DNA of 64,000 nucleotides from Tetraselmis striata (taxonomy: Eukaryota > Chlorophyta > Chlorodendrophyceae > Chlorodendrales > Chlorodendraceae): positions 1 to 64,000 of the forward strand of contig VCJN01000638.1 of NCBI GenBank assembly GCA_006384855.1, read 5' to 3'. Below are positions 14,747-30,844 of the stretch, one piece after another. The notes below the pieces were generated by a model. That model did no database searches. It was not told the origin of the DNA and saw only the letters and a list, made by a program, of their open reading frames with translations. The position numbers were made by a program, and so were the translations under genes. Each line of letters opens with the position of its first letter. Position 1 is the first letter of the stretch.

Positions 14747-17700
14747 TCAGTGAGCGACCACCGAGGTGGTGGGCCGGTCGCCCGGCTCCGAGTACAGCGA
14801 CGCCTTGGCTGAGCCCGGCGCCAGCTTGCGGTCGTTGACGAGCATGATGGGGCCCTCGCGCTCCATGGTCGCCAGGTGGCTGTACGCTGACGGCGACTCC
14901 GTCTGCAGAAACTCGGGCGCGTTGTGGAACAGGATGGAGTGCTGCCAGGGGCCCTGCGGAGCGGGGCGACAGGTCGTCAGCGGGCGCGCGCTACCGTCTG
15001 GCTCCCGGCGTCGCCGCACGGATCCGGGCAACGGCACTACGCCGAACCATAGAGTTGTTCCAGGATAGAAAAGCGCGGATGCGTTTTGCAATTCGGGCCA
15101 AAATTATGACCCATAGCCTAATTGACCGGTTTTGACCGAGTAAACGAAAAAACATATCATAACCAATTTAATGATTATTGCCGTAGCGGTGTTTAAACAG
15201 CAGTAGAGGACATATTACAGGGTTAGGAGAACCATAAGCGGACGGCATTGTGTCAAGCGGATAAGTAGACAGCAGAATGTGTGTGTGTGTGTGGGGGGGG
15301 GGGGGGGGGGTCACCTGGGAGCCCGTAGGCGCGCACCGCACGTAGCCTTTGAAGATCATCAGATCGTCCAGCAGCACCTCGATCTGCAGCCGCGGCCGGC
15401 GCGCGGGGCGTTGCAGGCGCCAGGGAGAGTCAGGTGGCGGCCGGGGCGGCGGCGTATCCAGGGCAAGCTGCTGGTGAATGCTCGGTAATACTGTCGCCTC
15501 AGTCGCACATCAAGTCAGACGCGTGAAATATGTAATATATATACAGGTAGAAACATGCCGGATTTGCGGGTCCGAAAACAGCGAATTGTTTCGAACCATC
15601 ACGTCGGAGATTCTGTGCCTTTATATTCTGACAGACTTCCAAATGAACGCAGTCGCCCCTTGGTAGCGAGGGGGTCGGAAAAGCGGAAAAAGATTGCGAA
15701 CCCAAAGCGGGGGTAGGGCGAGTTCCACCAGTGGCAGACACTGGTGGCTGGCGGCGGCGAGGTTTGGCTACTGAACACGGGGACCAGGACAGGGGTCCGG
15801 GGGGGGGGGGGGGGGTGGGGGGGTGGGGGGGGGGGGGGGTTCCGACCTCCTGCACGCCACGCGCCGGCGTCTTGGCGTAGTTCCAGAGTCGGATGGCGGA
15901 GAGCATGACGGGGCTCTCGAGCGCGATCGTGAGCGTGTTGGGCTCCCAGCCGCGGTTGTCGCCGCCGACGTCGTGCTTTACGAGCGGCGCGAGCCAGCTG
16001 TGGCTCGCGGCGGCGGTGTTGGGGCGGTCCACCACGCGACTTGGCAGCCGGACGTCGCGCTGCATGCCCGGCAGGTCCGCCACGGAGCGCGGGCTGGCGC
16101 TCACCTGCTGCGGCATCACCTGTCATCACCCGGGGGCAGCAGACACCCGCCCGTCGGGCGCTGTCAGTTGCACGCTCCGCAAGGCCCGTCCGCACATGCC
16201 ATGACCACACAGACACAGAGCCACAGACGCAGACACGGCACTCTGGTGCTCATGCGACAGCGACCACCGTGACATGAAGCCGCTCGATGTGAAGCGGAGC
16301 GCTGAACTACTACACACACCACACCAAATCCCACCATACAACACACCAAACGACTTTAGTCCTACGCAATGTCCGAAGGTGCCGAGAACGTTGTAAAGCT
16401 GCTGTTTTAACGGTACTAGCGGTAGTAGCGGTACTGCCTTGCAATCCGTATAGTATCGCCAAGCCGGTGCGTGTTCACATCCCTTCAATGCCATGCAACC
16501 CCGCATACTAAATTGTTTGCAGTCATCTAGGCAATTAAAGAATGCCTAAAGGCAGCATCTGCGGTGCAGCGCTGCAGCAACCTCCTTTTGTCTGCGCGTA
16601 CAACCATGGGGGCATGAGAGGTTTGCCCTTTGCATCGGCATGAAAGGGCTGGTACACGGCCACGGTCAACGTGTCTTCGGTAGTCTCGCGCAACTTCACA
16701 AGCCCCGTTGGGCTTTACACTGATATGTGTAACACCGTGTGCACGACTGATGCGGCCTGATGCGGGTCTGACGGCAGTCCCGGTCGCTTGAAAACCGGAA
16801 CAACGGCCCTGACAACAACGATTCGCCGCGCGTCATCACCTTATTCGTGCTCTTACAACAGTATTCAGGTTTATGGCGGTGCTGCGAGTACCTCCACACT
16901 CTACTAGCATTCCTGTGTCATCGCTGCAGCGGGGGTGCTCCCACCGTCCGCGACTCGCACAACTCATTTGACGCTGTCGGTGCACTGCGACAACACTACG
17001 ACACATCGCCACTGCAGAAGCCTCTACGGCCGCGCATCCCACCGTGCTCGCCACCACCTTGGCTTTCAGAGGGCTGCATGCTACGGGCTACGACCGCCCC
17101 TGTGGGGGTTCGTGCGGCCGGGCGCCGTAAGACAGCTGGCCTGTCTAGTTCTTGGAAGACCGGCAGAAACCAAGTTGTAACAAAATTCAAATTCGCCAAC
17201 AGCGGAGTCGTTGCTCGCCTTTCCCGCCGGGTGGTTCCACCGGATGCTGCAACTGTTGCGTTCTTTCCAAGGCGGCAAGGTGGGGAGGGTGGGGAGGGGG
17301 GGGGGGGGGGGTTCACCTGGATGGGCCCGCGCACCGCGTCCACGAGCTCCACGCCGGTGAGGCCCAGGTAGTGCTGGTCACCCCACGAGCTGAGCAGCAG
17401 CAGCTTGAGCACAAAGCCGCACGGCAGCAGCGGCGTGTCGAAGTCCTGCGGGGGGAGAAGGTGGGGAGGGGGGGGGGCCGAGGGGGGGGGGGGGAAGGGG
17501 GGAAGATTCAGTTGGAAGCGCGCTACGACCAAGGTGAATCCAGTGCAGCCTGAGCCCCCCCCCCCCCCCCCCCGGGTGAGAGAGGGGGGCATGGCCTGAA
17601 TGGTCATGATTCCACCGAATTCCACTGAATTTACAGGCTCGGGTTATTGGGATTCACTCTTGTTGCCAAATTGGCCCAGAATTCAGATTGAATTCAGCTG

Positions 17701-29700: not shown

Positions 29701-30844
29701 GAGGACGCAGTGATGCGCAGATGTGACCTGCTGGCTGGGGAGTAGGCCTATGCAGAAGCAGCCGTGAGGATTAAAGGGAAGGGATGGGAGCCATGGATGC
29801 CAAGCAAGCAAGCATTACTCTCACATTGCTCCATGCCCCCGCCCCCTCCTCTGGCCCAACTGCTGTGCGCCCCCTCACAAGCTAGCTTTACCTGTCCTGT
29901 CCGAACTCTGTGCTGGATTGCAAGCTCGCAGAGGTGCCGCCAGACTGCCTGCTGCGCAGTGCCACCGCGGAGAAAGGAACAATGGGGGGGGGGGGGAGAG
30001 GGGGGGCTCAACTCCGATGCTCTGCGCCCGCCATATGCTCATTGATGCCCAACTACATCTTCGCCTCAGCATCGAATGCGAGCGGGATGCAGCACGGAGA
30101 GGTTGTTGTTGTTGGTTATGTGTGTATGTGTGTGTGTGTGTGTGTGTGTGTGTGTGTGTGTGTGTGTGTGTATGCGTGTGTGTGTGTGTGTGTGTGTGTG
30201 TGTGTGTGTGTGTGTGTGTGTGTGTGTGTGTGTGTATGTGTGTGTGTGGTGTGTCAGGGGTGGGGGGCATACATGGCTCTTCGTTGAGGCAAAGCTTCCG
30301 GTAGCTCCATTGACTGCAGCGGCACAACACATCGCCGCCTCAGCGTGCCTTCCCCCCCCCCCCCCCCCCCTCTGCTCCTATAAGCTGCAGCATCAGGCCA
30401 CCGGAGCCACTCCCGTGGAATGCGGGCTACTCAATGCACCCAGTGAACTTTCGTATTGTGCCCGTGCGCGCGCGCGTGTCTGTGTTAATGCCAGGGCGGG
30501 GGGGGGGGGGGGGGGGGGGGGGGGGGGCCATGGAAGATAGCTTGCGCGCGAAACGCCCATCCTGTCACAACTGCCGCTTGCAGTTCATGGGGCCAGCGGG
30601 GGAAACCAGGACACCATGACCGCTCTCCTGCCCTGTGTGCGCAGCCCAAGGAAGCGGCGGGAAAGAGCGCCCCACCCAGCGGCAGGCTGCGGCGTCAGCG
30701 GGGAACAGCGGCCCCGCCGCTGGTCGTGGTGCGTTGCAGTGGTTGAGGCCGGCGGTCGCGCACCTGGGAGTCGGCCAACGCGCGGAGGCTGAGGTCCGGC
30801 GCTGTGTCCCACTGGCGCCGTTGCTGCCGCGGCGGGTCTGCCAT
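14747..30844 (-). CDS. KATNIP: Katanin-interacting protein KATNIP (KIAA0556 family)
   Basis: Ciliary-base and microtubule-associated protein; animal KATNIP binds katanin and is linked to Joubert syndrome. I read 26 exons with matching phases: 30844-30764, 29944-29892, 29654-29559, 29470-29308, 29189-29079, 28861-28628, 28085-27777, 27606-27364, 26642-26379, 25814-25448, 24785-24564, 24164-23952, 23459-23349, 23177-23020, 22811-22604, 22264-22166, 22046-21781, 21597-21329, 20880-20519, 20076-19936, 19817-19719, 19022-18790, 17445-17317, 16107-15847, 15383-15315, 14953-14747. They total 4968 bases, about 1655 residues, against about 1618 in human. The N-terminal third is acidic and low-complexity with a short helix (LEALSQENEAALRSS). 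Four modules follow, each with a STWGD.HY.GLTGIEL strand, a D..HMWLAP block and an L.VWNYNKS..D..RG block, as in DUF4457. The C-terminus ends RPTTSVVAH, typical of the family. The intron after 27777 uses a GC donor. Exon 1 and the upstream limit are the least certain. Confidence 0.9.
17446..18789 (-). other. Longest KATNIP intron region, with inserted repeats
   Basis: Intron between exons 22 and 23 (minus strand). It contains G/C homopolymers at 17468-17505 and 17557-17573, a 25-bp tandem repeat (18383-18482), and loosely matching inverted sequence around it (TCTGAAATTCGGGAT near 18308 versus CCTGAAATGTCGGAA read backwards from 18634). This suggests a small non-autonomous insertion of about 350 bp, but the ends do not match well. 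Confidence 0.4.
18383..18482 (+). repeat. 25-bp tandem repeat, four copies
   Basis: Units at 18383, 18408, 18433 and 18458 follow TGATGACAGA.CTATTTCGT plus CC.C, with a truncated fifth unit behind. They lie within a KATNIP intron. Confidence 0.9.
22948..22999 (+). repeat. (CA)n microsatellite in a KATNIP intron
   Basis: About 26 CA units, with CACG and CCCACG variants behind. On the coding strand this is a GT-rich run that starts immediately at the 5' splice site after exon 14 (exon end 23020). Confidence 0.95.
30117..30248 (+). repeat. (GT)n microsatellite in KATNIP intron 1
   Basis: About 130 bases of GT repeat with two short interruptions (TATGC, TATG). The apparent Val-Cys and Thr-His ORFs over it are artefacts of the repeat. 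Confidence 0.95.

Follow-up and report, generated by a model that had tools for sequence, protein, structure and literature searches.

Gene model and surroundings

The window analyzed here is a stretch of 64,000 nucleotides from Tetraselmis striata, which lies on contig C498 (VCJN01000638.1) of an assembly of 224 Mb in 2903 contigs. Its minus strand carries a many-exon gene, the parts of which are listed below, together with a repeat unit found inside one of the introns.

14747..30844, minus strand: predicted KATNIP gene, 26 exons, 1645-aa product (joined exons; PF14652 E = 4.9e-187)
27777..30844, minus strand: exons 1 to 7 (81, 53, 96, 163, 108, 195, and 309 nt), the N-terminal part, for which no family matched (own frame best in six of seven, exon 2 excepted)
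25448..27606, minus strand: exons 8 to 10, module A, divergent, with WNYNKS and without WGD or WLAP (PF14652 E = 1.2e-14 for module A alone)
22604..24785, minus strand: exons 11 to 15, linker joining modules A and B (joined exons; codon score, with exon 13 not scoring best in its own frame)
21329..22264, minus strand: exons 16 to 18, module B (WGDAHYVGLCG, WLAP, WNYNKN) and the linker after it (PF14652 E = 8.3e-38 for module B alone)
18790..20880, minus strand: exons 19 to 22, module C (WGDPYYMGLTG, WLAP, WNYNKS) (PF14652 E = 1.5e-54)
14747..17445, minus strand: exons 23 to 26, module D (WGDQHYLGLTG, WLAP, WNYAKT) and the C-terminus (PF14652 E = 2.1e-41)
16421..16583, no strand assigned: single unit, inside intron 23, of a repeat arrayed in tandem at 187-bp spacing elsewhere, on other contigs (DNA search, positions 10060-10222 of the minus-strand query)

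Exon borders were marked by eye on the minus strand and joined by script, the borders being picked so that the exons join. The 26 joined exons run from an ATG at 30844 to a TGA ending at 14747 and encode 1645 aa with no internal stop. Because the end points and the exon count were already known from an initial annotation of this DNA, which makes the exercise a check and not a blind repeat, and because the borders were picked to join, the agreement of exon phases is by itself weak evidence. All 25 introns end in AG, and 24 of them begin with GT, intron 7 being of the GC-AG type; the mean intron length is 446 bp, and the coding sequence has a GC content of 0.70 and a GC3 of 0.89. These are the features of a conventional intron-rich nuclear gene.

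The model was then scored for codon bias, with the score trained on the 13 domain-bearing exons (8 to 10 and 16 to 25), the tested exon left out each time, and the introns used as background. In 24 of the 26 exons, the frame of the model scored above the two other forward frames and the three antisense frames; exon 2 (53 nt) and exon 13 (111 nt) failed this test. Exon 2 is required for exon 3 to follow exon 1 in phase; exon 13 is entered and left in the same phase, and the frame survives if it is skipped. Two further borders, both outside the modules, are uncertain: the donor of exon 5 is atypical (gtggtg), and the acceptor of exon 19 may place the start of that exon, by reading, at either 20880 or 20928, which are phase-equivalent. 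Exons 1 to 7, together 335 aa, are placed by reading and codon bias only, without homology support.

Elsewhere in the window, 10 neighboring frames, picked from 24 listed, were searched against protein families, and six of them gave a match. These matches and the tandem repeats of the window are as follows.

41705-42040, plus strand: Ribosomal_L14 (E = 3.5e-27)
42541-42789 and 43119-43343, minus strand: queuine tRNA-ribosyltransferase TGT (E = 5.6e-13 and 5.1e-26)
47006-47377, plus strand: Fibrillarin (E = 2.4e-54)
52618-52809, plus strand: Rieske 2Fe-2S domain fragment (E = 0.00053, 20.3 bits, just at the curated cut-off)
54034-54603, minus strand: Sulfotransfer_4 (E = 3.4e-48)
12357-12684: tandem repeat, 164 bp, 2.0 copies
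18383-18487: tandem repeat, 25 bp, 4.2 copies, in intron 22
50845-51509: tandem repeat, 229 bp, 2.9 copies

Neither the Rfam scan nor the tRNA scan found a match in the window. Directly after the donor sites of exon 24 and exon 4, C-rich runs were seen on the coding strand at 15799-15839 and 29269-29302, respectively. The repeat in intron 23 (16421-16583) has at least 220 matches, those listed being 85 to 96% identical, and it forms tandem arrays at 187-bp spacing on other contigs, C105 and C1530 among them; it thus appears as a satellite-type unit within an intron.

DUF4457 modules and copy number

When the joined protein was searched against Pfam, it matched PF14652 (DUF4457) in five stretches with E = 4.9e-187. 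The profile search that the initial annotation had proposed as a check was significant, at 621.3 bits against a cut-off of 26.7. Each of the four modules also matched PF14652 when taken alone (A, 1.2e-14; B, 8.3e-38; C, 1.5e-54; D, 2.1e-41), and DUF4457 was the only family above its curated cut-off in the four modules; Sad1_UNC, EAD10, and DUF1923 were listed as well, all below their cut-offs. No Pfam family was found for the N-terminal 390 aa at E up to 10. An alignment of the four modules contains 16 columns that are invariant in all of them.

The initial annotation had described four copies of one motif set. All four modules do match DUF4457, but the motifs are less regular than claimed: WGD..Y.GL and WLAP each occur in three of the four modules, and the exact WNYNKS occurs in two, the remaining two having WNYNKN and WNYAKT. 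Since module A lacks both WGD and WLAP, the set is better described as three good copies and one divergent copy. An RPTTSV string lies near the C-terminus of the model; the initial annotation named it as the C-terminus of KATNIP. The claim of a full KATNIP gene of 26 exons in an alga held, with an open frame of 1645 aa and the PF14652 match given above. Judged from sequence, this is almost certainly the alga's KATNIP (KIAA0556) gene, apparently complete in the 26-exon model, and orthology with KATNIP in the strict sense is inferred.

We also examined the copy number of the gene. An intron-blind search of the whole assembly for DUF4457 (E ≤ 0.001; seven of seven candidates scored) returned six exon matches, all above the cut-off and all in this gene, and none of the 14 control genomes matched. 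One of these matches (19624-19824) holds a TAA, as it overruns the end of exon 21 at 19719 into the intron; exon 21 itself is free of stops. When the DNA spanning exons 16 to 18 (module B) was searched against the assembly for a second allele or paralogue, one match was found, the window's own. A longer query of 10,796 bases gave at least 220 matches (36 of 2152 candidates scored); as the matches listed are those of the intron-23 repeat and the window's own match is absent among them, that search is uninformative on alleles. Altogether, the gene is apparently the sole KATNIP copy of this alga. Pattern scans that detect close relatives only, in which 103 aa of module B served as the query, confirmed none of 11 matches in viral contigs and none of 148 in prokaryotic genome contigs, and hence nothing points to a viral or bacterial source.

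Two other readings of the locus were weighed against KATNIP. The 26-exon model might over-assemble parts of a degenerate copy, or of a gene split in two, as could be argued from the weak coding signal in exons 2 and 13, the N-terminal 390 aa that match no family, and a model that was drawn from genomic DNA alone with borders picked by eye. Against this stand 1645 codons with no internal stop, GT-AG or GC-AG borders at all 25 introns, and the fact that this is the sole site of the DUF4457 family found in the genome, and we consider such a reading very unlikely. Less probable still, to the point of being barely credible, is a different protein that shares a jelly-roll-type domain, be it SUN, discoidin, or IFT25-like. 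Its one point of support is the marginal Sad1_UNC match (E = 0.087, below the cut-off; E = 0.37 for module C), which is set against 621 bits for DUF4457, the only family to pass its curated cut-off in the four modules. A search by sequence for a relative of solved structure likewise offered nothing to such a protein: the sole match of the full protein in the PDB set (phmmer, E up to 10) was an ATP synthase subunit at E = 1.3, and a four-module profile (hmmsearch, same set, E up to 10) gave two matches to MINDY-2 at E = 0.81, all of which were treated as chance.

Intron positions across the modules

With the locus read as KATNIP, the introns of the four modules were compared on the module alignments. 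One intron is common to modules B and D in both alignment position and phase (phase 0, after GARK and GVQE), and the second introns of these two modules are 2 nt apart. Module A has an intron 6 nt away from the common B/D site, and module C has no intron site in common with the other modules. In a random-placement test, with 20,000 placements on each of three alignments and with introns 15, 22, and 25, which lie beyond the module ranges or at their margins, left uncounted, the chance of such coincidence was approximately 0.06 for one exact position, 0.03 within 2 nt, and 0.009 within 6 nt, these tolerances having been set after the positions were seen.

The common B/D position counts as a weak lead. 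It is improbable that the module introns descend from an ancestral module gene in which introns were already present before the internal duplications of KATNIP, prior to the last eukaryotic common ancestor (LECA); if they were, the B/D intron would be older than the module duplication. Introns common to pre-LECA paralogues have already been studied (PMC9120149).

Flagellar genes and comparison with published KATNIP

The initial annotation had taken the gene to imply a flagellated life stage, and other families found in the genome agree with this. Radial_spoke gave two matches (best E = 9.9e-97; none of 14 controls), IFT57 three matches on one contig (best E = 3.4e-33; 3 of 14 controls matched, none above the cut-off), B9-C2 12 matches, 11 of them above the cut-off (best E = 5.1e-15; none of 14 controls), and Katanin_con80 two matches (E = 2.5e-6 each; none of 14 controls). 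Together, these predicted genes support a flagellated stage, itself inferred from genes, more strongly than KATNIP does by itself. The 63 matches of Chloroa_b-bind (1 of 14 controls, Synechococcus elongatus) point to a photosynthetic alga. The matches of Radial_spoke, Katanin_con80, and B9-C2 are paired, with equal or almost equal scores, across different contigs (C2720/C2816, C1707/C2637, and C52/C2467, respectively), as would be expected of a partly phased diploid assembly; KATNIP and IFT57 are single.

The initial statement that discussion of KATNIP centers mostly on animals agrees with the titles in the literature, which are mainly of human and animal studies, and a title-level search, in which few subscription journals were covered, found no title that deals with a green-algal KATNIP. 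The view that an algal copy is noteworthy did not hold. According to passages of Sanders et al. (2015, PMC4699358), most ciliated organisms have an orthologue, and the authors infer its presence in the LECA, so an algal copy is expected; the main-text passages name no algal orthologue, the species list being in the supplement. The gene is real but expected, its family is already known, and it answers no open question.

In the same passages, KATNIP is placed at the ciliary base, and an interaction with katanin was found (PMC4699358). Parts of other reports describe KATNIP as a scaffold that stabilizes and activates CILK1 (PMC11311665), suggest it as a CILK1 modulator (PMC12237634), and record a two-hybrid interaction with CFAP161 (PMC8233316). 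By analogy with the animal homologues, the algal protein would be located at the basal body and ciliary base, where its modules may serve as binding surfaces, and would act as a scaffold, binding katanin subunits and stabilizing the ciliary kinase CILK1, with possible effects on axonemal microtubules and perhaps on flagellar length. Its most likely role would be the same as in animals, namely a basal-body scaffold with repeated modules that bind katanin and a CILK1-type kinase. A simple role in length control is disfavored by the normal cilium length of disrupted mice and worms in the passages of PMC4699358 and by a mouse truncation that, in the part of PMC8233316 concerned, had no associated defect of ependymal cilia. 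A ciliary role would be assigned by analogy, and the evidence is mixed even in animals.

The data indicate that the alga keeps the ciliary-base scaffold KATNIP beside genes of intraflagellar transport, the radial spoke, and the transition zone, matching the published distribution, and a copy in a photosynthetic flagellate could aid its study in a fast genetic system.

Two known systems can be set beside this protein. With the IFT25 (HSPB11) jelly-roll it would share the remote, possibly circularly permuted relation that passages of PMC4699358 report for KATNIP repeats. No IFT25 chain was recovered from the PDB set by either the protein (phmmer) or the four-module profile (hmmsearch), with E allowed up to 10, in searches that may be too weak for such a distance. 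The comparison with KATNIP/KIAA0556 was made with its published description, not by alignment with the animal or Chlamydomonas protein. On that basis, the algal protein may differ in its first module, which lacks WGD and WLAP, and in its N-terminal 390 aa, which match no family. The likenesses are broader: the domain family is the same, PF14652 (DUF4457); the four modules fall within the three or four repeats that passages of PMC4699358 give for all orthologues; and the 1645 aa, which the initial annotation had placed near the length of the human protein, are indeed close to the 1610 aa reported there for mouse KATNIP.
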